NCBI GenBank assembly: GCA_024648695.1
Contig: JACAVV010000042.1
Location: 1-37,793, forward strand
Origin: Nitrospina sp.
GTDB lineage: Bacteria; Nitrospinota; Nitrospinia; Nitrospinales; JACRGP01
DNA length: 37,793 nucleotides
Direction of reading: 5' to 3'
The position numbers and the translations under genes were made by a program. Every line of letters begins with the position of its first letter. Positions within the stretch are counted from its first letter, which is position 1. Of this stretch, positions 8,183-35,509 are shown one piece after another. Under the pieces are notes generated by a model. It was not told the DNA's origin and did no database searches. It worked only from the letters and a program-made list of their open reading frames with translations.

Positions 8183-8320
8183 CCAGGCAACGCCTTGAGG
8201 TGGCACCGGGCGACTGGGGGTGACTTGCTCCCGCGCCGGGACTGGTGGCCTGAGTTATACTTTCAAAAATTTCCCCTCGCCCCTTGTGGGAGAGGATTAG
8301 GATGGGAGCAGAAGAGGTCG
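8183..8320. repeat. GC-rich degenerate palindromic intergenic repeats
   Basis: Two imperfect palindromes lie between the LolA-like and HTTM genes. At 8275-8295, CCTCGCCC pairs with GGGAGAGG around a 5-nt loop, one mismatch away from a perfect stem. It resembles the CCTCTCCC/GGGAGAGG intergenic repeats dispersed in many bacterial genomes. A second imperfect GC-rich stem lies around 8203-8250. Copy number elsewhere in the genome cannot be judged from this window. Confidence 0.4.
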
Positions 8321-8385
8321 AAGGCTCTCCTTTGGAGGTCCCCATATTACTGGCAGACAACTTTAAAAAATCACTATCCTGGTCC

Positions 8386-9732
8386 ATGAAGGGAAAACCT
8401 TTTTTCAATCCATTCTGGTTTCGGCCCGTCGATGCCGCTCCCCTTACAGCCTTTCGAATTTTGTTCGGCCTAATCATGATTTGGGAGATCGGGCGTTATT
8501 TTGCTTATTCTAGAATCGAAAAATACTATATAGACCCTCTGTTCTTTTTTACCTATCCTCTTTTCAGTTTTGTGAGCCCATTGCCGGGCAACTGGATGTA
8601 CTTGGTGTTTATCCTGATGGGAACATCCGCTTTATTTATTGCGCTGGGTTTGTTTTACAGAATAGCCGCGGCATGCTTTTTCCTGACCTACAGTTATGCC
8701 TTTTTAATCGATTGCACCCAATACAACAACCATTATTATTTTATATGCCTGTTGGGATTGCTCATGTTCTGTATTCCTGCGCATCGTAACGTGTCCCTTG
8801 ACGCATGCCGTAAACCAGGGATTCAAACCGCAAAGATTCCATTTTGGTGTCTTTTCCTTTTAAAGTTCCAGATTATCATTGTCTATTTTTTTGGCGGTGT
8901 GGCGAAACTGAATTCTGACTGGCTGAGAGGCGAACCCATGCGCCATTGGCTGGAAGACACCACCACGTTACCCTGGATAAACGAAGTATTGACATCCGAG
9001 CCCAGCGTTTATTTTTTCTCCTACGGCGGCCTGGTTTTCGATTTGTTCATTGGATTCGCATTGCTCAATAATAAAACAAAACCTATAGCGGTCTTTCTTG
9101 TTTTAATGTTCCACCTAACCAACGCCTGGATGTTTTCAATTGGAATTTTCCCTTATTTAATGATTGCCGCCACAGTTCTTTTTTTACAGGCAGAGACGAT
9201 CAACGAATATTTTTTGCGCTTTCTATCACTTGCAAAGGGTGAGGGTGGTGGTGATGAAAATTTAAAAAACGAGCCCCGAATTTCCGTCCTTATATTTCTT
9301 GGAATCTATTGTGCAATTCAAATTTTATTGCCATTGCGCCATTGGCTGTACCCTGGAAATGTCAACTGGACGGAAGAAGGCCATCGGTTTTCATGGCATA
9401 TGAAACTTAGGGATAAATATGGAGATATTGGTTTCGTCATCCGCGACCCATCAACCGGGAAGATGTGGAAATGGAGAATGGAGGACGATTTAACTCAGCG
9501 CCAGATTGGAAAAATGTCGGGTCGCCCGGATATGATTCTCCAATACGCTTCCTATATAAAAGATACCCTGAATTGGCAAGGCTACGAAGGATATCAGATT
9601 TTCGCGGATTCCACGGTGTCTTTGAATTTCAGAGAGCCCAGTCCTTTGATAGATCCTTCTGTGGATTTATCCAAGGTCGAATTTTCTCCATGGATTTATA
9701 ATAATTGGATTTTGCACCTTGAAGAGGATTAA
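8386..9732 (+). CDS. HTTM-domain (vitamin K-dependent gamma-carboxylase-like) membrane protein
   Basis: From ATG 8386 the protein has 448 residues. An upstream ATG at 8302 has a better-looking AGAGG signal, but that lies inside a palindromic repeat and would add an atypical polar extension. The N-terminal half has several hydrophobic helices of the horizontally transferred transmembrane (HTTM) type, beginning FWFRPVDAAPLTAFRILFG and including YAFLIDCTQYNNHYYF. The C-terminal region (HRFSWHMKLRDKYGDIGFVI and later VSLNFREPSPLIDP) matches the luminal part of bacterial VKGC-like proteins. Human VKGC carboxylates glutamates using vitamin K; bacterial homologues mostly have unknown substrates. The stop lies only 3 nt from the end of the convergent gene. 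Confidence 0.8.
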   Translation: MKGKPFFNPFWFRPVDAAPLTAFRILFGLIMIWEIGRYFAYSRIEKYYIDPLFFFTYPLFSFVSPLPGNWMYLVFILMGTSALFIALGLFYRIAAACFFLTYSYAFLIDCTQYNNHYYFICLLGLLMFCIPAHRNVSLDACRKPGIQTAKIPFWCLFLLKFQIIIVYFFGGVAKLNSDWLRGEPMRHWLEDTTTLPWINEVLTSEPSVYFFSYGGLVFDLFIGFALLNNKTKPIAVFLVLMFHLTNAWMFSIGIFPYLMIAATVLFLQAETINEYFLRFLSLAKGEGGGDENLKNEPRISVLIFLGIYCAIQILLPLRHWLYPGNVNWTEEGHRFSWHMKLRDKYGDIGFVIRDPSTGKMWKWRMEDDLTQRQIGKMSGRPDMILQYASYIKDTLNWQGYEGYQIFADSTVSLNFREPSPLIDPSVDLSKVEFSPWIYNNWILHLEED

Positions 9733-17092: not shown

Positions 17093-18283
17093 TTAGCGAT
17101 CACATTCGCCGCCGATCATGTTGATCATGTCGAAGGTCGGAATCAAATCAGCCAACATTTCTCCTTTAATCATATGGCTCATCGCGGATGTGAGGGAAAA
17201 GCAAGGGGGACGGACACGGCATTTATAAGGTTTTCCGGAACCGTCACTGACAAGATAAAAGCCCAATTCGCCATTGGCGGCTTCCGTGGGGAAATAAACT
17301 TCGCCAACAGGAGGTTTTAATCCCTCGATAGTCAACTTGAAATGCGCGATCATTTCTTCCATTTTGCTATACACGTCAGTTTTAGCAGGTTGCCTCATAA
17401 ATGGATTAGCAACATTGACGGGGCCATCAGGCATATCTTTCATCGCTTGCTTGATAATTTTAAAGCTTTGCTTGATTTCTTCCATGCGCACCAAGTAACG
17501 ATCAAAGTTATCTCCGGTAGTACCCAACGGAATGTCAAAGTCAATTTTGTCATAGCTCGAATAAGGGTGTTGCTTACGGACATCGTAATCCACGCCGCAG
17601 GCGCGGAGACAGGGACCCGTGAAACCGAAGGAAATAGCATCTTCGGTGGAAATTTTACCGGTGTCGCGCATGCGGTCCAGAAAAATACGGTTTTTAGTAA
17701 GCAGTTTGTCTACATCATCGAACAAGGGATCGAGTTTCTTGTAGCTGTCTTCCAAATCTTCAGCAAAACCCGGTGGAAGGTCGCACATCAGGCCGCCAAT
17801 GCGCACATAATTGGAAGTCAGTCTCGCTCCACATACTTTTTCCAAAAGATCCCAAACAATTTCACGAGCCTCAACGAAATAAATGAATGCGGTGAGTGCG
17901 CCCAGTTCCAGTGCAGCGGCCGCAATATTGGTGTAATGATCGGAAATACGGGATAATTCGTTAGTCACCATTCGAATGTATTGGCACCGTGGAGTGGCTT
18001 CAATGCCTAACAGTTTTTCTACAGCAAGGGCATAGCCGATATTGTTCATGATGGCCGAACAATAATTCAAACGATCGGTGTAAGGGAATACATTATTCCA
18101 GGTTACGCTTTCGCACATCTTTTCGAAACCTCTGTGCAAATAACCGATTTCAGTCACGCAATCGACGATAGTTTCCCCATCCAGGGTCAATAAAAATTTA
18201 ACCGTCCCATGCGTAGCAGGGTGGGAAGGACCCATATTCAAAACCAGATGTTCGGTCTTTAAATTTTCTTTTAAGTCGGCCAT
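17093..18283 (-). CDS. nuoD: NADH-quinone oxidoreductase subunit D (49-kDa subunit)
   Basis: This 396-residue protein is a full-length NuoD of complex I, which with NuoB forms the quinone-binding cavity at the base of the peripheral arm. Hallmarks are LNMGPSHPATHGTVKF at the start, EIGYLHRGFEKMCE near residue 42, the NELSRISDH motif near 110 and the end MINMIGGECDR. As usual, the [NiFe]-hydrogenase metal cysteines of the ancestral family are lost. It is the third gene of nuoE-nuoG-nuoD, 53 nt after nuoG. No nuoB, C, H or I follows: the next 290 bases contain nothing, so the remaining subunits must be elsewhere. Confidence 0.96.
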   Translation of the reverse strand: MADLKENLKTEHLVLNMGPSHPATHGTVKFLLTLDGETIVDCVTEIGYLHRGFEKMCESVTWNNVFPYTDRLNYCSAIMNNIGYALAVEKLLGIEATPRCQYIRMVTNELSRISDHYTNIAAAALELGALTAFIYFVEAREIVWDLLEKVCGARLTSNYVRIGGLMCDLPPGFAEDLEDSYKKLDPLFDDVDKLLTKNRIFLDRMRDTGKISTEDAISFGFTGPCLRACGVDYDVRKQHPYSSYDKIDFDIPLGTTGDNFDRYLVRMEEIKQSFKIIKQAMKDMPDGPVNVANPFMRQPAKTDVYSKMEEMIAHFKLTIEGLKPPVGEVYFPTEAANGELGFYLVSDGSGKPYKCRVRPPCFSLTSAMSHMIKGEMLADLIPTFDMINMIGGECDR

Positions 18284-18336
18284 AAGATTGTTCTAATTCA
18301 CAGAGGTTATGAAATTAAAGTTAAGGAAGATGAGGG

Positions 18337-20967
18337 TTAACCCGCTTTCGAAATTTTTACCGAAACGAGGCCTTCTTCACCATTGCGTAGCATATTCACC
18401 GGAATTTCCGTCCAGTTTTTGGGAATGTAAACAGTACCCTGAGTGGATACGAACGAAACTTCGACAGGTACATTAAACTTATGATTCTCCGATTGCACCT
18501 GAATGGTATCGCCTGATTGCAACTTTAGTTTTTTGGCGTCTTCCGGATGAATTCCGGCACGGCACTCAGGCCCGATTTCCTTCAAGGCTGATGACCGTTG
18601 GGAATGGGACCCGCTATGGAACATATGATTGTTGGAAATAAGTTTAAATGGAAAATCTTTTTTATCGGATGTTTCCTTGAACTCGGAAGCCAATGCAAAT
18701 TCAGGGTTTTCAGCAAACGAATCAGCAGGCCATTGACCGTATTTATCACCAGGCATCAGGCCTTTATACAATGGGATGACTTGCTCGATTTCATTTTGAA
18801 CGTCTGCAAGGTCCGTATTGCTAAAAGGCTTGCCAAGGGCTTCGGCAATTTCGCAGAATACATCGTAGTCCGGTTTGGAATTACCTTCAGGAATGACCGC
18901 ATGATTCACGGGCAAAACGTGTCGGGTAATATTTGTAAACGTACCATCCTTTTCGGCGAACGAACTGACAGGAAGAACGATGTCAGCCATCTCTGCCGTT
19001 TCGGTCATGTAGAGGTCCTGAACCACCAGGAATGATACGGTTTTCAACGCTTCCCGAACCAACGAACCTTTGTAATAGGAATTGACCGGATTTTCACCGG
19101 CAATGTAAAGGAATTTCAACGACCCGTTTCGGCAATTTTCCAGTAAAGCTTCGGCAAGGTTCTCACCTTCAAAAGAAAGACTTTCAACTCCCCAGGCATT
19201 TGCTAATGAAGTAAGAGCTGTCTGATCATCGGTTCCTTTATACCCCGGCAAGAACTGGGGAGCCACTCCCATATCAATAGCGCCCTGAGAGTTGGCATGT
19301 TCGCGTGGAGGATAAATACTAACACTTCCTTCCCCGCCATGATGCACTACGATTGCCAGATTTAAAAGCGCATCCAGGATTTCCTGACCCTGGCCGTTTT
19401 CCAGAATATCGTTGCCAATCAAAACAAAACGGTCAGCTTTTTTCCCGAAGGATTCCGCCGCTTGCGTGAACACATCGTCATTAATACCCGTTGCTTTTTC
19501 CGCAAACTTGGCGGTGTATTTCGACAAAGATTTGGTCATCTGACTGTAATTCGGAACTGCTTTTTTCAGTTTGTCTACATCCACGATATTGGAGTCGATC
19601 AGAATCCGGGTAAGACGATTCGCAACCACCAAATCGCTTCCTGCACTGAACTGCAAGCGGATATCGTTTTTCGTTTCACTATTAAAAATAACGTTACGTG
19701 GATTCGCAATAATGATATCTGCGCCAAAATTGATCGCCGCTTTGCGAATCGCATTGCCACCCACCGGATACTCAGAAGGCAGATCCGAGTTGAAGACCAG
19801 AGCAACATCAGCCTCTTCCATTTCCATGATCGGTTTTGAATGAATTCCGTTTTCAAAACACTTCAACATGAAGGAATTGATGTATGGGGCGCGCAGGTTT
19901 TGCAGTGTCGTGATCTGATTGGATCCCAAGCCCGCTCGAAACAGCTTCTGGAACAGATAGCTTTCCTCATTGGTCAACTTTTCGCCGCCAATACCAGCAA
20001 CCGTCCCGGCACCGTTTCTATTGACAGTGGTTTGCATGCGCTCAGCAATCGCTTCAATGGCTTCTTCCCAGGAGACTTCCTTAAAATTGCCGCCGACGTT
20101 CATCATCGGACTTTGAATCCGTTCGTCGTTATGAATAATGCCGTGTCCAAGCCGGCCTTTAGCGCACAGGTTGCCATTGTTGATCCCAACTTTTTCATCA
20201 TCGATAGGTTCGATGCGAACCACTTTACCTTTTTTAGCTTCCAACCGGACTGAACAGCCCCAGGAACAATAATCGCAAGTGGACTCCGTTTTGGCGAACA
20301 AAGCCGCCAAACCACGTGCTTCCGACGTCATGTCCATCAAAGCACCCGTGGGGCATACCGTAATACATTGCCCACAAAATTCGCAATCGAGAGGCTCTTC
20401 GTTGGCCGTTCCGATAGTGACGCTCATTCCGCGCTTATGAAAATCCAGCGCTTGCACACCCTGAATCTCGTCGCAGGCGCGCACACACATGCCACACATA
20501 ATGCATCGATTCAGGTAAAACTCAATGATGGGATTGGTCTTGATGCTCGGCTCATTGCGGCGGTTGATTTCAAACCGGCCGTCAAAGATACCCAAAGCAT
20601 CCGTGTTGTCCTGGAGCGGACATACGCCGGACTTATCGCAAATCGGGCAATCGAGGGGATGTTCCACCAACAGCATTTCCAGACACGCACTATTGTAGCG
20701 GTTGGTTTCGTCAGTGTTGGTGTAAACCTCCATACCATCTTCCGGGGGGTGCGTGCAGGAATAAACAAGCTCTTTTTTACCGTCGACGTTCACCTCGACC
20801 ATACAAGTCCGGCAGGCCGCGAAAGGTTTCAGGTTGCGGTGCGAACACAGGTTTGTGATTGGAATATCGTTGCGTTTGGCGACGTCCAGGATCACCGTGC
20901 CTTCTTTGGCCGTGACCTCTTTGCCATTAATTTTGAAGTTGATATCTTTACGTTCAACGGTGCTCAT
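18337..20967 (-). CDS. nuoG: NADH-quinone oxidoreductase subunit G, dicluster-ferredoxin variant
   Basis: This 876-residue protein has an N-terminal [2Fe-2S] domain (Cys41, 52, 55, 71), a His-Cys3 [4Fe-4S] site (His103, Cys107, 110, 116) and two complete CxxCxxCxxxC motifs (Cys155/158/161/165 and Cys195/198/201/205). A further Cys231/234/238/268 site opens a molybdopterin-oxidoreductase fold that runs to a C-terminal dinucleotide-binding-like domain (about 765-860). Ordinary NuoG proteins usually have a single N4 site in place of the paired ferredoxin motifs. The paired layout is that of formate dehydrogenase and hydrogenase electron-transfer subunits. Operon position between nuoE and nuoD supports complex I, but an FDH-like or ferredoxin-linked activity is an alternative. 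Confidence 0.9.
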   Translation of the reverse strand: MSTVERKDINFKINGKEVTAKEGTVILDVAKRNDIPITNLCSHRNLKPFAACRTCMVEVNVDGKKELVYSCTHPPEDGMEVYTNTDETNRYNSACLEMLLVEHPLDCPICDKSGVCPLQDNTDALGIFDGRFEINRRNEPSIKTNPIIEFYLNRCIMCGMCVRACDEIQGVQALDFHKRGMSVTIGTANEEPLDCEFCGQCITVCPTGALMDMTSEARGLAALFAKTESTCDYCSWGCSVRLEAKKGKVVRIEPIDDEKVGINNGNLCAKGRLGHGIIHNDERIQSPMMNVGGNFKEVSWEEAIEAIAERMQTTVNRNGAGTVAGIGGEKLTNEESYLFQKLFRAGLGSNQITTLQNLRAPYINSFMLKCFENGIHSKPIMEMEEADVALVFNSDLPSEYPVGGNAIRKAAINFGADIIIANPRNVIFNSETKNDIRLQFSAGSDLVVANRLTRILIDSNIVDVDKLKKAVPNYSQMTKSLSKYTAKFAEKATGINDDVFTQAAESFGKKADRFVLIGNDILENGQGQEILDALLNLAIVVHHGGEGSVSIYPPREHANSQGAIDMGVAPQFLPGYKGTDDQTALTSLANAWGVESLSFEGENLAEALLENCRNGSLKFLYIAGENPVNSYYKGSLVREALKTVSFLVVQDLYMTETAEMADIVLPVSSFAEKDGTFTNITRHVLPVNHAVIPEGNSKPDYDVFCEIAEALGKPFSNTDLADVQNEIEQVIPLYKGLMPGDKYGQWPADSFAENPEFALASEFKETSDKKDFPFKLISNNHMFHSGSHSQRSSALKEIGPECRAGIHPEDAKKLKLQSGDTIQVQSENHKFNVPVEVSFVSTQGTVYIPKNWTEIPVNMLRNGEEGLVSVKISKAG

Positions 20968-20994
20968 GAAGAATGGGTCTCCTCTCCTTCCCGG

Positions 20995-21495
20995 TTATTC
21001 TTTATCTTCGTAACTGCCCAGCAGGCTTTGGGTCACTTCAGGATCAATCGATCCATGCGTGTCATCGCCGATAATAGCCATAGGGGCCGCGCCACAGTTC
21101 CCAAGGCATGACGCCAATTGCAGAGTGAACAGTTTTTTCGCGTCAGTTTCGCCCGCTCCGATATGGTAAACTTCCTTGATTTTGTCCGCGATGATGGGGG
21201 CGCCTTTCACGAAACAAGCTGTCCCATAGCACAATTTGAGGATGTATTTACCAGGTTCCACAATCCGGAATTGCGGATAAAAGGAAATCACCCCGTACAA
21301 TTGCGCGCGCGAGATGCGCAGGTATTGCATTACCAATTCCATAATATTCGGGGGCAAATAGCGGTAGGACTGCTGAATTTTGTCCAGAATGGGAATCAAA
21401 TGCCTTTTTTTCTGCGGGAAAGAAGCTAAAATTTCCTCGGCGGCTTTAGGATCTTTTATTTCTTGTTCTTCTTCTACGGCTTCTGTCGTTTCCAT
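20995..21495 (-). CDS. nuoE: NADH-quinone oxidoreductase subunit E (24-kDa, [2Fe-2S])
   Basis: The 166-residue protein has the thioredoxin-like [2Fe-2S] fold of NuoE, with the four ligands as CYGTAC (Cys-x4-Cys) and CLGNC (Cys-x3-Cys). The helical N-terminal segment contains KKRHLIPILDKIQQSYRYLP, typical of the family. In complex I NuoE carries cluster N1a and pairs with NuoF, which holds FMN and the NADH site. NuoF is not encoded here: nuoG follows after 27 nt. HymA/HoxE-type proteins share this fold, so the partner could differ. It is the first gene of the operon, about 115 nt from the predicted promoter. Confidence 0.93.
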   Translation of the reverse strand: METTEAVEEEQEIKDPKAAEEILASFPQKKRHLIPILDKIQQSYRYLPPNIMELVMQYLRISRAQLYGVISFYPQFRIVEPGKYILKLCYGTACFVKGAPIIADKIKEVYHIGAGETDAKKLFTLQLASCLGNCGAAPMAIIGDDTHGSIDPEVTQSLLGSYEDKE

Positions 21496-21862: not shown

Positions 21863-22237
21863 TCAATATGGGCGGAGAGGACTTTTTAACATTGGAAAAT
21901 GCTTGAGGTTCCTTGTAACAAGAGTGAGTTCTTTTTGCTCGGCGGAAGATGCAATTAGAGCATCCATGATTCCCACTCCATGACTCTTCCCGTATTGCTG
22001 ACGATAATAACCACCCTTTATCGCCATATCTTCTGTTAAAGGGATCACCGGAAGATGCTGGGCTAGATTGTCAAGCGCAGTGCGTTCCTTACCTTCGCGA
22101 ACGCCCGCATAGAGTTCAGCAAGTGTAAGCGCGGATAAGAAAGGCGGATTTTCCAAACTTCCAAAAAACTGAACGGCCTGTTCCTTTCCACGGAACAAAT
22201 CGATCAGAATGCAGGTGTCCAGCAGAAAGTTTACCAT
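21863..22237 (-). CDS. vapC: VapC-type PIN-domain ribonuclease toxin
   Basis: This 124-residue protein is a complete PIN domain, with the metal-binding acids Asp7 (LLDTCILIDLF), Glu41 (TLAELYAGV) and Asp92 (GIMDALIASSA), and a final LVTRNLKHF motif. In VapBC modules the toxin cleaves specific tRNAs or other structured RNA until the antitoxin blocks it. Its start overlaps the antitoxin stop by 7 nt, the usual coupling. The last acidic position, often Asp in TRNxxDF, is His here, which is seen in family variants. It looks intact and probably active. Confidence 0.92.
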   Translation of the reverse strand: MVNFLLDTCILIDLFRGKEQAVQFFGSLENPPFLSALTLAELYAGVREGKERTALDNLAQHLPVIPLTEDMAIKGGYYRQQYGKSHGVGIMDALIASSAEQKELTLVTRNLKHFPMLKSPLRPY

Positions 22238-22494
22238 TTCTGACGATCAAACTCCTGGCGAATGGATTGCATACGGTTGTCGGCATCTGCATCATCCGCC
22301 CAAATGCCTTTCATGCAGAATAAAGCTTGTTTCCACTGATATGGCTGAACGTTCTTTTCTGCCAGGAGCAAGTCTACTGCCTCACGGATCAGCTCACTTT
22401 GCCGCGTTCCGGAACTGATAGCAAGGGCCTTTAATGCCCGCTCCTGATCCTGGGATAAGTATACCTGTGTACGGATCATTGAATCTTTTTTCAT
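22231..22494 (-). CDS. vapB: VapB-type ribbon-helix-helix antitoxin
   Basis: The N-terminal part is a CopG/Arc ribbon-helix-helix DNA-binding domain (MIRTQVYLSQDQERALKALA, then SGTRQSELIREAVDLLL). An acidic C-terminal tail with DDADADNRMQ would neutralise the toxin. I use ATG 22494 (87 residues); ATG 22479 (82 residues) is also typical for the family, and neither has a clear ribosome binding site. The 22494 codon lies inside the upstream palindrome, so a leaderless transcript is possible. The pair should autorepress. Confidence 0.88.
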   Translation of the reverse strand: MKKDSMIRTQVYLSQDQERALKALAISSGTRQSELIREAVDLLLAEKNVQPYQWKQALFCMKGIWADDADADNRMQSIRQEFDRQKW

Positions 22495-22511
22495 ATACAG
22501 TATTGTATATG
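22492..22511. promoter_or_regulatory. Perfect palindromic operator of vapBC
   Basis: CATATACA (22492-22499) and TGTATATG (22504-22511) form a perfect 8-bp inverted repeat around GTAT. The minus strand also reads TATACT and TATAT sequences like a -10 box. Ribbon-helix-helix antitoxins bind such sites, so this is the likely autoregulatory operator. Confidence 0.72.
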
Positions 22512-22572
22512 TTTTATTTTTGAAAACCAAGATGAACTCAAGAATTTTTCAATTCATCATCGACTTATCTAC

Positions 22573-22933: not shown

Positions 22934-25216
22934 TTATTTCTCGATTATGGGGATACCAGAAGGTGTGACCAGGGTGTCGTCTGTAGCGGCTTCCGGTGCG
23001 GTATCCATCAAGCGGTAGGCGGTTTGGAGACGGAGTTTGGCGGAGGCGTGTTTGGGGTCGAGGTCCAGAGTGCGGGTGAGGGGACCGATGGCGTCGCGGT
23101 GGTGGCCCAGTTCTCCGTAGGTCCAGCCCAGACTGAAATGGGCGTCGGCGTTCGCCGGATCAATGCGAGTCGCCTGGCGGAAGGGTTGCAGGGCCTCCTT
23201 GTAGCGTCTTTGTTCGCTTAAAACCCAGCCGAGGCTCAGGTAGCAGTCGAGGCATTTGCGGTCGCGTTCGAGTGCCCTTTTGTATTGGTGGGTGGCTTCC
23301 CGTTTACGTCCTAACAGTTCCAGGGCGAGGCCATAATTGTAATGGTTTTTCGCTTTATCCGGTTCCATCTCCACCACTTTGCCGAAATAATACACAGCGC
23401 GCGCATGTTGCCCGAGCAGAGTGTGCGCGGAGCCTAGATGACTGAATGCGACCACCTTGTTCGGGCTCATTTCGACGGCTTTTTCGTAGGACGCTATGGT
23501 GTCCTGATACCGTTCCAGTTTCCAGTAGGTGAACCCCAGAGTGGACCAGGCTGAGGGATGTTTGGGATTCAACTCGGTGGTTCGCTTTAATGGGGGCAAG
23601 GCTTCCTTGTATCGATGTAAATGGAACAGGCTTTTTCCCAGTAAAAAGTGGGCTTCGGATTGTTTGGGATCCTGCATCACCGCCACTTGTAAATGCGGAA
23701 CGGCTTGTTTGTATTTTCCCAATTCTGCAAATGCGCGCCCCAGTGCGAAATGAGCGGGACCGTGTTTTTTGTCCTGCTTGATGACTGCTTTCAGAGGCGG
23801 CAAGGCGTCTTTAAATTTTTCCAATGCGAGATAGGTTCGGCCCAGCTCATACAAATAGGTCACCGACCTGGGCTTGAGTTTGGACGCTGTTGTTAACGGT
23901 TTGACTGCCTTATCAAAACGGTTCAACTTACCGAGCAGGGCGCCGAGGTGGTAATGTCCTGGAGCATATTTGGAATTGATCTTCACCGCTTCACGATATG
24001 TATTCAGTGCCTTTTCGTGGGCCTCCAGTTTTTCATAAACCATGCCCAGTTTCGTACGTGCGATAAAGTGTTTGGGACGGATTTTTACAGCAGACTCAAA
24101 CGCACTTGCGGCCTCTTCATATTGTTTCAGCTGACTTTGCAATTTTCCCAAAGCGTAATAGGCAACGAAATATTTTGGAGACAGTTCAATGGCTTTGGTG
24201 AAGGAGTCGATAGCATTTTTGGGTAACTTGAGAGCCTTGTAGGAGAGGCCTTTTCGGTAATACGCCCTATGGTGTTGCTTATTGTACCTCAGTGCCATGT
24301 CAAAATTTTCGATGGCATCTGCGTGCTTGCCGAGTCCGGCCAGAGACAGCCCCAGATTAAAATAAGCCGCGGGACTTCGGTAGTTGCTTCGGGTCCATTC
24401 CTTGAAATTCGCGAGCGCCTTTTGGTGTTTCCCCATACGATTATAAGCTTTGCCGAGAAGGTGATACGCTTCGTCCCTTTGAGGGCGCAGGCGGATAGCG
24501 TCTTCCAGCGGAGCCAGGGCCTTTGAATACTTTTTAGTCTTCAGATAAGCCGAAGCCAGGCCGGTATAGCCGGAATAAAAAAAGGGATTGAGACCGAGCG
24601 CACTGCGGTATGCCTCGATGGCCTTATCCGGTTTTTTGAGAGCCAGATAACTGTGTCCAAGATTCAGCAATGCTTCGGGGTGAAGCGGGTCGATATGCAG
24701 TGTCTTTAAAAATTCCTTCACCGCTTTTTTATGTTTTTTCATGGCGGCGAGGGACAAACCCAGATTGAAATGGGCGGGTGCAAGGTTTGGTGAAATCTCT
24801 ATCGCGATATTGAGATGTTTGGCGGCTTTTTGGTATTTGCCTAATTTGATATAAGCCAGTCCCAGTCCTGCCTGGGCATCGGCGTAGTTGGGGTCAATGT
24901 CCACTGCCTTCATGTAAGCGTCGCGGGATTTGGTGAAATCGTCCATCTGCCCGTAACTGCCGCCGATCCCTTCCAAAGCGGCCACATAAAGCGGTTCGAT
25001 TTTTAAAGTTTCCTCGAACTCTTTAATTGCCAGATCGTACAGGCCCATCAATCGGTAGGTATTGCCCAGGGCGAAGTGGGCCAGATAGTCTTGCGGGTCC
25101 TGCTCAATGACCTTTTTGATATCTTCAATCCGATCCAGTTCAGCATGGGAGGGAAGGACGCCGGATACCAACAGCAAGCCAACAATTATAATGCGGAAAT
25201 AAAATTTCACTTGCAT
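22934..25216 (-). CDS. Secreted tetratricopeptide-repeat protein with about 20 TPRs
   Basis: After a signal peptide (FYFRIIIVGLLLVSGVLPSHA) the 760-residue protein consists almost wholly of about 20 consecutive 34-residue TPRs plus one partial repeat, from about residue 39 to 735, then a short tail (LVTPSGIPIIEK). Each repeat keeps the W/Y-x2-LG-x2-Y and A-x3-F/Y-x2-A pattern (for example AHFALGNTYRLMGLYDLAIKEF). Twenty repeats would make nearly three superhelical turns, a scaffold for protein complexes in the periplasm or on the outer membrane. No enzymatic domain is present. Partners cannot be identified; the neighbours amt and the PIN remnant offer no clue. Confidence 0.88.
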   Translation of the reverse strand: MQVKFYFRIIIVGLLLVSGVLPSHAELDRIEDIKKVIEQDPQDYLAHFALGNTYRLMGLYDLAIKEFEETLKIEPLYVAALEGIGGSYGQMDDFTKSRDAYMKAVDIDPNYADAQAGLGLAYIKLGKYQKAAKHLNIAIEISPNLAPAHFNLGLSLAAMKKHKKAVKEFLKTLHIDPLHPEALLNLGHSYLALKKPDKAIEAYRSALGLNPFFYSGYTGLASAYLKTKKYSKALAPLEDAIRLRPQRDEAYHLLGKAYNRMGKHQKALANFKEWTRSNYRSPAAYFNLGLSLAGLGKHADAIENFDMALRYNKQHHRAYYRKGLSYKALKLPKNAIDSFTKAIELSPKYFVAYYALGKLQSQLKQYEEAASAFESAVKIRPKHFIARTKLGMVYEKLEAHEKALNTYREAVKINSKYAPGHYHLGALLGKLNRFDKAVKPLTTASKLKPRSVTYLYELGRTYLALEKFKDALPPLKAVIKQDKKHGPAHFALGRAFAELGKYKQAVPHLQVAVMQDPKQSEAHFLLGKSLFHLHRYKEALPPLKRTTELNPKHPSAWSTLGFTYWKLERYQDTIASYEKAVEMSPNKVVAFSHLGSAHTLLGQHARAVYYFGKVVEMEPDKAKNHYNYGLALELLGRKREATHQYKRALERDRKCLDCYLSLGWVLSEQRRYKEALQPFRQATRIDPANADAHFSLGWTYGELGHHRDAIGPLTRTLDLDPKHASAKLRLQTAYRLMDTAPEAATDDTLVTPSGIPIIEK

Positions 25217-32219: not shown

Positions 32220-33107
32220 TCACTCAATATTTTGTAACTGTTCTCGTACCTTTTCCAAAAGGCTTTTTACATCGATCACCCATTCGGAAACCTGGTAATC
32301 ACTCGTTTTGGACCCAATGGTATTGGTTTCGCGGTTGATCTCCTGGCAAATGAATTCCAGCTTTCTTCCCATCGGGCCTTCGGAAGAGAGCAGGTTCTGG
32401 AACTGGACAAGATGGCTTTCGAGCCGCGTGATTTCTTCCGAAATATCGCTACGGTCGGCAATCAGGGCCGTTTCCTGCGCCAGGCGCGATTCTTCCAATT
32501 CTATGCCTTCGCTCAGGATTTTAACCTTTTCATTCAGACGGTTTTTATACTCCTTGATGATCTGCGGTTGACGTTCCAGAATCTGGGCAGACAACTTTTT
32601 AACTTCCGCGATGCGGTGAGAAAGGTCGTCCTGGAGATTCTTCCCTTCTACCTCGCGCATTTTAATTAACTCGGAAACCGCCTTATCGACCGTATTTAAA
32701 ATTTCTTCCTGTTGATCGGAGTCAATTTCAATGGGTTGAACCTTTATCAAATCGCGGTCCCTGAGATTGAGAACGGAATTGATATCAATTTCCCCTGCAA
32801 GCCCGACTTCTTCTTTGATTGCCTTCAAGGCATTCACATATTGACCGGCCAGTTCAAGGTTTGGGCGGATTTCCTGGTCGCCTGCATCCCCATTATTTTT
32901 CTCCAGACCAATGGTGATGTCAAAGGATCCGCGTGAACAGCGCTTTTTAATAAGGCTACGGACGGGATTATCCAGGACGGAAAATGATTTTGGGATTCGT
33001 GCGTTGATCTCAACGTAACGGTTATTTACGGATCGAATTTCCACCTTACAGGAATACCCGTTGAACATCGATTCCGCCCTGCCAAACCCCGTCATGCTTT
33101 TTATCAT
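32220..33107 (-). CDS. yicC: YicC-family endoribonuclease-like protein
   Basis: I start at ATG 33107 (295 residues); a TTG one codon upstream would add one residue. The N-terminal signature IKSMTGFGRAE, the middle NRYVEINARIPKSF and the C-terminal GRKLEFICQEINRETNTIGSK are diagnostic of YicC. E. coli YicC is an RNase acting in sRNA turnover. The middle is strongly helical, as expected for its oligomeric form. Its ATG overlaps the upstream reductase stop by 1 nt (TGATG), so the two are coupled. The pairing with gmk 71 nt downstream is the common one. Confidence 0.93.
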   Translation of the reverse strand: MIKSMTGFGRAESMFNGYSCKVEIRSVNNRYVEINARIPKSFSVLDNPVRSLIKKRCSRGSFDITIGLEKNNGDAGDQEIRPNLELAGQYVNALKAIKEEVGLAGEIDINSVLNLRDRDLIKVQPIEIDSDQQEEILNTVDKAVSELIKMREVEGKNLQDDLSHRIAEVKKLSAQILERQPQIIKEYKNRLNEKVKILSEGIELEESRLAQETALIADRSDISEEITRLESHLVQFQNLLSSEGPMGRKLEFICQEINRETNTIGSKTSDYQVSEWVIDVKSLLEKVREQLQNIE

Positions 33108-35509
33108 CAATTGTTCTTTTCTATGACCATTTTAAAATGGTCGTCTACTTTATCGAGTGATATTAATGTATGCCCATCGTTCTGAACGCTTTTGGGAACA
33201 TTGTTAACGGGGTCCCCGTCATCAAGCAGAACCTCAAGACGCTGACCCGATTCCATGGTCTCCAGCTTCAGTTTGGTTTTTACATAATTGAACGGGCATT
33301 TGACTCCCAGCAGATCGATACTTTGAATCGAAGCGCCATTCCCCCCGGAAGAACCATTGCCGGATTTGGCAGAAACATTGCCTTCGGAACCCACCCGGAT
33401 TCTTAGGGACTTATCTCCCTGCATTTTGTTATAAGCATTTTGGCTTTGCTTCAACAGTTCTTCGGATTCAGAAAACCGGCTTTGCGCTTTGGCTTCATCT
33501 ACACTATCTGTAGGTTCCTGAAACCGCTGTGCGATGCCCGTGAATTCTTCGGAAACGATTCCTGCGTCCACAATTAGAGATTCAAACTTTTGTAAGGTTT
33601 CCAGGTCCTCTGAAAAATCCATACCCTCGGTAACCAATAAGCCTCTAGCGGATGCTACCACAGATCGGTTGATGTGCTGAACCGCACTTGAGTAATCATT
33701 GCTTTCAATGGCCAGCTTGGCCTGAAAATGAGTGCGCTCGGCCTGACTCAAATGATCCTGGATCATGTCTGTCATTGCACCGGCACATTCTCCCTGACCT
33801 CTATCCTCAAGACTGAATTTTTCAGTTGAATGATAGTCGATATAGGATTCAGGCGCCTCTTCAATGTCTGGCAATTCTTTAAGGTCACTTAACATATTAA
33901 GGAAATAACCTTTTCCTTTTCTATCAACAAATTCGGGAAAGGTTTCATTCTCCAGCTTTTCGTTCTTGTAAGCTTCGGTCGTCCTTTTGACTGACTCAGG
34001 AACGTTTTTAGCTGGAATTTTTATCACAGAAGTTCCAAAAACCACCTGGTCTTCAAATACTCGCCCACCCAGCATCATTTCGTAATGGGGGGCCAGGATG
34101 CCGTTGATTTTTTTCGCACCACCATGAAATCCGATGGAACCAATATGATGCTGACCGCAAGAGTTGGGACAGCCGCTGATCTTTACGGATATATCGTCCA
34201 GGATTTTGGAGTCGGTATAATTTTTTTCGAACTCGCTGGTTAAATGGTCGGCGAGTCCTCTGGACGCGGTGATGCCCAGATTACAGGTTTCTGATCCCGG
34301 ACAGCAGGTCACGTCCCGCAACTCTTCGGTTCCGGCCTTATGGAGTCCATTCTCTTTTAATTCGCCATAAAGTTTTCCGAAAGCTTCCGGTTTGACCCAA
34401 GGGATCATGACGTTTTGATTCACCGTATTCACAAGCTGTCCTGCGCCATATTTTCTGGCCAGTGAACTCATAAAACGACCTTCTTTAATTGTAAAATCAC
34501 CTAACAGCAGTTTTATGTGAATATTATAATAACCTTCTTGCTTTTGCTCACAGGTATTGCGCGATTTCCAATTGACGAACTCAGGATCCGATTCAAAAGA
34601 GTCGTCCGCTTCAACAGATGGAGTTTCAGGAATGGAATCATCCTGAATGGCAATGTCGGGGTAAACCGTGTTTTTCAATTTGTCGAAATTCTCCTGGATC
34701 AATTCCTTAACTTTATCCAGGCCATATTTGTCCAATACAAATTTGAAACGGGCTTTGTTCCGGTTCTTTTTATCGCCGTGCTCATTGAACACTCTTACGA
34801 TGGCTTCCGACATGCGCAAGACATCATGGGTCGGGACAAAGTCCGATAAAAGCTGAGCCGCATGCGGAAACGATCCCAGTCCGCCACCGATTACAACTTT
34901 AAACCCTTTGATTTGTTCTCCATTTTCTTCCCGGATAACAGAGTTGTATCCAATGTCATGAATCGGGGCGATGCCACATCCGTTACAGCCGCCGAAACTG
35001 ATTTTAAACTTACGTGGCAGGTTCTGGGTTAATGGGTGACGAATCAAAAAATAGGAAACCGCACGGGCGTAAGGATTGACATCGAACAATTCGTTTTTAC
35101 ACGTTCCCGCTTTATGGCAAGCTGTAACATTTCTTACCGTATTACCACAGGCTTCGCGAGTGGTGATGCCGTTATCAGCCAAAGTTTGTAAGGCATTGGG
35201 AACATCTACCAATTTTACATAGTGGAACTGAATGTCCTGCCGAGTGGTTACATGCAGAATTCCATGGGAATATTTTTCAGCGAAGTCAGCCAGGCAATCC
35301 ATTTGGTCCGAAGTGAAACGGCCCATTGGTAATTTGGTGCGCACCATATGAACGTCTTCCTGCCGTTGTCCATAAATGCCCTGCTGTAATCGAAAGCGTT
35401 TGAATTCTTCTTCGCCCACTTCCCCTCGATTGAGCCTTTCAACTTCGGCTGTAAATTCCTCGATTTCCTGTTTGACTTCGAGAGGAATATTTAAATTTCT
35501 CGTATCCAT
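33107..35509 (-). CDS. Siroheme nitrite/sulfite reductase fused to a helical linker and TusA domain
   Basis: This 800-residue protein has two nitrite/sulfite reductase repeats. The second repeat carries the siroheme/[4Fe-4S] ligands as Cys403-x5-Cys409 and Cys447-x3-Cys451 (CCPGSETC and GCPNSCG). It lacks flavin domains, so the electrons should come from ferredoxin, as in NirA or SirA. A helical region (about 565-700) with paired SAVQHINRSVVASARGLL-type helices follows. The C-terminal TusA-like sulfur-carrier domain (about 728-800) has its CP motif at Cys738. Substrate (nitrite, sulfite or both) cannot be read from sequence. A GAGGTAA ribosome binding site precedes it. TGATG couples it to yicC. 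Confidence 0.9.
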   Translation of the reverse strand: MDTRNLNIPLEVKQEIEEFTAEVERLNRGEVGEEEFKRFRLQQGIYGQRQEDVHMVRTKLPMGRFTSDQMDCLADFAEKYSHGILHVTTRQDIQFHYVKLVDVPNALQTLADNGITTREACGNTVRNVTACHKAGTCKNELFDVNPYARAVSYFLIRHPLTQNLPRKFKISFGGCNGCGIAPIHDIGYNSVIREENGEQIKGFKVVIGGGLGSFPHAAQLLSDFVPTHDVLRMSEAIVRVFNEHGDKKNRNKARFKFVLDKYGLDKVKELIQENFDKLKNTVYPDIAIQDDSIPETPSVEADDSFESDPEFVNWKSRNTCEQKQEGYYNIHIKLLLGDFTIKEGRFMSSLARKYGAGQLVNTVNQNVMIPWVKPEAFGKLYGELKENGLHKAGTEELRDVTCCPGSETCNLGITASRGLADHLTSEFEKNYTDSKILDDISVKISGCPNSCGQHHIGSIGFHGGAKKINGILAPHYEMMLGGRVFEDQVVFGTSVIKIPAKNVPESVKRTTEAYKNEKLENETFPEFVDRKGKGYFLNMLSDLKELPDIEEAPESYIDYHSTEKFSLEDRGQGECAGAMTDMIQDHLSQAERTHFQAKLAIESNDYSSAVQHINRSVVASARGLLVTEGMDFSEDLETLQKFESLIVDAGIVSEEFTGIAQRFQEPTDSVDEAKAQSRFSESEELLKQSQNAYNKMQGDKSLRIRVGSEGNVSAKSGNGSSGGNGASIQSIDLLGVKCPFNYVKTKLKLETMESGQRLEVLLDDGDPVNNVPKSVQNDGHTLISLDKVDDHFKMVIEKNN

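Follow-up and report, generated by a model that had tools for sequence, protein, structure and literature searches.

The stretch of DNA analyzed here, called the window, covers positions 1 to 37,793 of contig JACAVV010000042.1 of Nitrospina sp. (assembly GCA_024648695.1). On its minus strand (17093-21495) lie three genes in the order nuoE, nuoG and nuoD, and family scans label their products NuoE, NuoG/formate dehydrogenase (FDH) alpha and NuoD. The first gene, nuoE2 (20995-21495), encodes a 166-amino acid thioredoxin-like [2Fe-2S] subunit that carries the N1a/C1 cluster (PF01257, 4e-41). The second, nuoG2 (18337-20967), encodes an 876-amino acid NuoG/FDH-alpha-like subunit, and the third, nuoD2 (17093-18283), encodes the 49-kDa quinone-site subunit (396 amino acids; TIGR01962 above cut-off). 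Nitrite-oxidizing Nitrospinia have a second complex I, NUO-2, and these genes encode three of its subunits. The initial annotation described a nuoE-nuoG-nuoD operon without nuoF, and the lack of nuoF holds well beyond this contig: none adjoins nuoE or nuoG in the window or in any of approximately 27 orthologous loci. The coordinates that it gave, 18337-21495, cover nuoE and nuoG and leave out nuoD.

The genome carries two complex I sets. NUO-1 is a full canonical operon on contig C17, with its nuoF between its own nuoE and nuoG. NUO-2 is scattered: nuoEGD in the window, nuoACHIJKLMN on C10 and, as single genes, nuoB2 on C23 and nuoF2 on C25. Compared with the ancestral nuo order, precisely B and D-E-F-G are missing from the C10 cluster. 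This cluster encodes one NuoL, one NuoM and one NuoN, and its single NuoM led to rejection of NUO-2 as a 2M complex I. The genome-wide search for other nuo genes and duplicate sets suggested by the initial annotation thus found both, including the NuoF that it thought might be encoded elsewhere. nuoF2 is present in nearly all Nitrospinales genomes searched and is distributed over much the same genomes as nuoG2. No conserved neighbor of nuoF2, such as a ferredoxin gene, was found in the relatives searched. A NuoG match occurs in 40 of the 41 genomes of the relatives search, and orthologues with 61-69% identity come from named Nitrospinaceae genomes. The split nuoG2 of one relative (G031) was set aside as an assembly artefact; its break falls at runs of unknown bases in the scaffold.

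NUO-2 and its ferredoxin hypothesis are already known. The system was described for Nitrospina gracilis 3/211 by Lucker et al. in 2013 (PMC3578206), with reverse transport from quinol to ferredoxin proposed, and a 2024 survey reported a second nuo set for the class Nitrospinia (PMC10839748). These papers give the same division into nuoEGD, nuoACHIJKLMN and solitary nuoB2 and nuoF2, and the same extra [4Fe-4S] cluster in NuoG2, extra clusters in NuoF2 and ferredoxin hypothesis. Three additions appear to be new: the residue pattern of NuoF2, the discordance between the input module and the core, and a NuoG2 that is FDH-like and lacks the catalytic Cys-His. The residue-level view of NuoF2 and the module exchange were not found in the literature searched, which comprised open-licence papers.

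Cofactor and nucleotide sites of NuoF2 and NuoG2

NuoF2 (607 amino acids) differs from a canonical NuoF: its N-terminal domain is thioredoxin-like and its C-terminal domain is of the 2x[4Fe-4S] type. Its closest solved relatives are bifurcating-type subunits such as NfnB, HydB and StnB-like, and homology places it as a Bfu/HydB-type subunit. The published contacts of A. mobile HydB (PMC8880783) were mapped onto 32 NuoF2 sequences, and the HydB numbering was checked. Residues K177, N194 and E197, which bind flavin mononucleotide (FMN) in HydB (PMC8880783), are invariant in all 32, as are the Gly-rich loop, E286 and N321/N322. According to the N. gracilis paper (PMC3578206), NuoF2 is without an FMN site and keeps its NADH domain. 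The 32-sequence alignment points the opposite way: the HydB FMN contacts are conserved throughout, and FMN binding is predicted from these residues.

The nucleotide site is different. The adenine contacts F180 and F307 are Lys (30/32) and His (32/32), respectively, and the ribose contact E287 is Ser in every NuoF2. In T. thermophilus Nqo1, NADH is held by the residues at these positions, Phe78, Phe205 and Glu185 (PMC4694087). R304 is replaced by Gln, D199 by Asn and, in 31 of the 32 sequences, G280 by Glu; position 304 is Lys or Arg in every comparison sequence. In this fold, R304 and G280 are expected to contribute to the nucleotide pocket. In the loops, GGPSG has become GGVTG and S427-G429 has become QAS. 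Of three loop motifs specific to bifurcation, two (AFM and GGPSG) are changed in every one of the 32 sequences. Among the NAD(H)-binding residues and the AFM/GGPSG motifs, NuoF2 keeps F282 and M204, and the rest are replaced. Judged by these positions, NuoF2 has kept its FMN contacts, its NAD(H) contacts have been replaced, and the flavin site would be occupied. E287S and F307H taken by themselves are weak evidence because two other Bfu-type proteins (L132 and L072) share them. In both, residue 304 is still basic, and D199, G280 and the loops GGPSGG and GSGG are retained; the argument is the full set of substitutions.

The cluster ligands are nearly complete. The N3/B1 ligands and the eight ligands of the C-terminal ferredoxin domain are kept in 32/32 NuoF2. 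All BfuB ligands of B1, B3, B4 and the B2/Zn site are present, with each Cys in 32/32 except one in 31/32, and the His equivalent to H525 is found in 32/32. In NuoE2, the C1 cluster residues Cys 89, 94, 130 and 134 are conserved in 32/32 sequences.

NuoG2 contains the N1b [2Fe-2S] ligands Cys 41/52/55/71 (residues 41-71; 20755-20847), the N5 His-Cys3 ligands His103 and Cys 107/110/116 (residues 103-116; 20620-20661), a ferredoxin-like pair, C155xxC158xxC161xxxC165 and C195xxC198xxC201xxxC205 (residues 155-205; 20353-20505), and the N7 [4Fe-4S] ligands Cys 231/234/238/268 (residues 231-268; 20164-20277; PF04879). A degenerate formate-dehydrogenase-like domain follows (residues 283-860; 18388-20121; PF00384, PF01568), and all of these features are on the minus strand. 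The listed Cys residues are invariant in 29/29 NuoG2, and His103 is invariant in a 12-sequence alignment. The [2Fe-2S], His-Cys3 and paired CxxCxxCxxxC motifs pointed out in the initial annotation are therefore present with their ligands. Its "molybdopterin-type Cys site" does have the Cys, which belongs to the ordinary N7 ligand set that is also found in NUO-1 NuoG. Following the usual 2x[4Fe-4S] pattern, C155/158/161/205 were assigned to N4 and C165/195/198/201 to an extra [4Fe-4S] cluster. The paired motif is real and specific: NUO-1 NuoG has none of Cys 165/195/198/201, and in two other Nitrospinota the NuoG of complex I lacks the equivalents of Cys 195/198/201. The extra set is present in FdsA and in soluble EFG proteins.

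The FDH-like character suspected earlier is supported by profile scores, where the FDH-alpha model (TIGR01591, 437 bits) outscores the NuoG model (TIGR01973, 387 bits), both below cut-off. It does not extend to catalysis. NuoG2 aligns end to end with FdsA of the NAD-dependent formate dehydrogenase FdsABG, extra cluster included, but in the alignment to R. capsulatus FdsA the catalytic Cys-His is replaced by Arg359-Ala360, and both residues are invariant. NuoG2 is, as far as the alignment goes, formate-dehydrogenase-like without the catalytic Cys-His. An active formate dehydrogenase was rejected since the catalytic Cys/Sec and its adjacent His are absent. The counterpart of the extra cluster in HydABC is A3, through which the site equivalent to N7 is joined to the electron chain (PMC9499530). 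By analogy, the extra cluster of NuoG2 probably connects N7 to the chain, and a second electron exit at the FDH-like domain is conceivable.

Histories of the core and the input module

The two NUO sets were compared with four other Nitrospinota genomes that have complex I operons or parts of them; the gene order in one of these (G041) is A-B-C-D-E-F-G-H-I-J-K. Wherever both comparisons can be made, A, B, C, D, H, I, J, K, M and N of the other Nitrospinota complex I are closer to NUO-2, with identities of 79% for NuoB, 69-71% for NuoD and 71-72% for NuoH. NuoD2 and NUO-1 NuoD are 42% identical. A true NuoL orthologue occurs in one of those operons (L143) and is also closer to NUO-2. In contrast, E, F and G of the other Nitrospinota complex I are closer to NUO-1 than to NUO-2.

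The trees divide in the same way. NuoD of NUO-2 groups with the other Nitrospinota operons (support 100), and NuoF2 groups with Bfu-type and soluble EFG proteins (99), outside the complex I clade. The initial annotation had asked where NuoG2 falls in a tree, and the answer is outside complex I: all sampled complex I NuoG, from NUO-1 and others, form a clade that excludes it (99). The D, F and G trees are quick searches with few taxa and some long branches. Together with the replaced NAD(H) contacts, the placement of F and G outside the complex I clades means that NUO-2 does not have a canonical NuoEFG input module. NuoE2, NuoF2 and NuoG2 have, on these comparisons, a different history from the rest of NUO-2. 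Most simply, this would mean that an FDH/Bfu (HydABC-like) module took the place of the NADH module in the phylum's complex I, with the direction of exchange presumed. The contrast between core and module may look larger than it is if E2, F2 and G2 diverged rapidly. In the accessible parts of the NUO-2 papers on N. gracilis and Nitrospinia (PMC3578206, PMC10839748), no discussion of module exchange was found.

The exchanged module has counterparts elsewhere. Nuo-Bfu complexes (BfuB clades 38 and 39; Schut et al. 2022, PMC9304861) likewise combine a complex I core with a BfuABC-type module that replaces canonical NuoEFG. Their Bfu genes are in one operon and NAD(H) use is proposed, whereas the NUO-2 genes are dispersed and other residues stand at the NAD(H) contacts of NuoF2. 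Nitrospina goes unmentioned in that paper. The electron-bifurcating enzymes HydABC, NiFe-HydABCSL and StnABC are related to the same module: HydB is the homologue of NuoF2, HydC of NuoE2 and HydA of the N-terminal half of NuoG2, with nearly the same cluster ligands. Unlike these enzymes, NUO-2 has a membrane complex I core, not a hydrogenase or transhydrogenase, and an altered NAD pocket. A further parallel is Nitrospira moscoviensis, a nitrite oxidizer in which an alternative, 2M-type complex I without a linked nuoF is accompanied by a separate nuoF and given the same proposed role (PMC6606698). That cluster has two NuoM and lacks nuoH and nuoE (PMC6606698), whereas NUO-2 has one NuoM, nuoH and nuoE.

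In other Nitrospinota, three loci (L129, L130 and L131) have NuoF2-like genes apart from complex I genes, beside nuoE and/or a NuoG/FDH-like gene. The NUO-2 module may have come from a relative of these loci. The soluble EFG proteins of L130 and L131 were rejected as active formate dehydrogenases, as the catalytic Cys-His is absent in the alignment. The L132 locus, in a relative of the same order (G012, contig C26), holds a BfuABC-like trio, with an HdrA-like gene and an aldehyde-ferredoxin-oxidoreductase-like gene beside it. The whole resembles a benzoyl-CoA reductase (Bam) cluster. A second nuoF-nuoE-like pair (L133, 12694-14433, plus strand) lies beside the complex I operon of G041.

Proposed electron path and its alternatives

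The question addressed by NUO-2 is how an aerobic nitrite oxidizer, starting from very-high-potential electrons, obtains low-potential ferredoxin for the reductive tricarboxylic acid (TCA) cycle. NUO-2 is the published candidate. We somewhat favor the view that it is a proton-motive-force-driven quinol:ferredoxin oxidoreductase, built from the phylum's core (A, B, C, D and H-N) and an FDH/Bfu-family input module (E, F and G), that runs in reverse. The residue pattern sharpens the proposal: FMN present, NAD(H) unused and ferredoxin reduced at the C-terminus of NuoF2. In this fuller form, the exchanged-in module has lost NAD(H) recognition, has kept FMN and relays electrons to ferredoxin for the reductive TCA cycle; this is put forward tentatively, as a little short of an even chance. 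The earlier suggestion that electrons enter through ferredoxin rather than NADH, or that NuoF is encoded elsewhere, is thus partly supported, with something to be said for both options: the separate NuoF exists, and it is non-canonical.

Proton-motive force would drive electrons from quinol at NuoD2/B2 through N2, N6, N5, N4, N1b and N3 to FMN in NuoF2. From FMN they would pass to the C-terminal 2x[4Fe-4S] domain of NuoF2 and on to ferredoxin, and the reduced ferredoxin would feed the reductive TCA cycle. By a rough estimate, 4 H+ per 2 e- and 190 mV allow an uphill step of ~0.38 V, which would take menaquinol, assumed here as the quinone, from -74 mV (PMC9304861) to about -450 mV. The reverse direction, and ferredoxin as product, are what we infer from these features. 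Such a quinol:ferredoxin oxidoreductase would matter for how abundant marine nitrite oxidizers fix carbon, and exchange of a module in the complex I native to the phylum would be an evolutionary route to it.

Several points weigh against this proposal. At the N-terminal [2Fe-2S] site (B5) of NuoF2, three of the usual four Cys are present, and a further invariant Cys occurs at position 59. As noted, E287S and F307H are shared with two other Bfu-type proteins, and the loss of known contacts may be compatible with another mode of nucleotide binding. The sole structure model made, an AlphaFold model of NuoG2 from 12 sequences, has a mean predicted local distance difference test (pLDDT) score of 49.6 and is too poor to use. 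Assembly of E2, F2, G2 and D2 in one complex is likewise a prediction, in which NuoF2 is joined to the other three by co-occurrence and homology. The activity and composition proposed for NUO-2 come from sequence comparison.

Foremost among the alternatives, though unlikely, is that NUO-2 is an ordinary bifurcating Nuo-Bfu complex in which reverse flow from quinol yields NADH and reduced ferredoxin at the NuoF2 flavin, or in which confurcation occurs. The nearly whole Bfu cluster set in NuoF2 and NuoE2 is consistent with this, as are the bifurcating relatives NfnB, HydB and StnB-like and the Nuo-Bfu complexes proposed for other phyla (PMC9304861). Bifurcation in the Bfu family is, however, held to be controlled by NAD binding (PMC9304861), and every NuoF2 in the set of 32 shows changes in the AFM and GGPSG motifs as well as in the NAD(H) contacts.

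Use of NADP(H) by NuoF2 through E287S and F180K, with NUO-2 making NADPH and perhaps ferredoxin, comes just after it and is also improbable. The change of Glu to Ser together with Phe to Lys is of the type that admits a 2'-phosphate, and the organism would be expected to need NADPH for biosynthesis. The rest of the pocket argues otherwise: R304, basic in all comparison sequences, is Gln; G280E puts a negative charge in the nucleotide-pocket loop; and the adenine-stacking F307 is His. Support for NADP(H) use was looked for in the literature and none was found.

A still less probable arrangement places NuoF2 outside NUO-2, with electrons leaving through NuoG2, where the extra [4Fe-4S] cluster would connect both N7 and the FDH-like domain to the chain. 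The link made by A3 in HydABC (PMC9499530) and the position of nuoF2, unlinked to nuoEGD and without conserved neighbors, fit this arrangement, but NuoE would then have no NuoF partner, which is difficult to account for, the genomes with nuoF2 are largely those with nuoG2, and E, F and G are all FDH/Bfu-like. It is very improbable that NUO-2 borrows the canonical NuoF encoded on C17 and acts as a normal NADH:quinone oxidoreductase isoenzyme, for that nuoF lies between its own nuoE and nuoG, NuoE2 is just 29% identical to NuoE1, and a dedicated NuoF2 is kept throughout the order.

The organism and neighboring genes

The organism is a Nitrospinaceae nitrite oxidizer of the Nitrospina type, which agrees with the nitrite-oxidizer lifestyle proposed from the window. 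An NxrA fragment of the genome matches the nitrite oxidoreductase structure PDB 7b04 at 1052 bits, and the TIGR03479 search returned only sub-cut-off NxrA pieces, at contig ends. The pieces on contigs C50, C52 and the end of C23 of this genome (G000) break at contig ends, as would fit repeated nxrA copies collapsing the assembly. Three POR_N-domain proteins are encoded, and they point to a demand for ferredoxin.

Upstream of nuoE2, all on the minus strand, are vapC (21863-22237; PF01850), which the initial annotation had correctly named as the next gene, a ribbon-helix-helix antitoxin gene paired with it (22231-22530; RHH hits) and a TPR-repeat protein gene (22934-25216; TPR Pfam hits). The order TPR-nuoE-nuoG-nuoD recurs in most of the orthologous loci across the order, with a shorter TPR-nuoE interval in relatives than in the window. 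Because relatives keep the TPR gene as the upstream neighbor of nuoE, the vapC-antitoxin pair, which sits between the two here, is a local feature of the window and outside the complex.

Two further genes of the window were noted. At 33107-35509 (minus strand) is an 800-amino acid NirA-type nitrite/sulfite reductase, an unusual fusion of two NIR_SIR domains with TusA at the C-terminus and a weak HEPN-like match, which is likely a ferredoxin consumer. At 8284-9732 (plus strand) is an HTTM/vitamin K-dependent gamma-carboxylase-like protein (PF05090 and PF22777).

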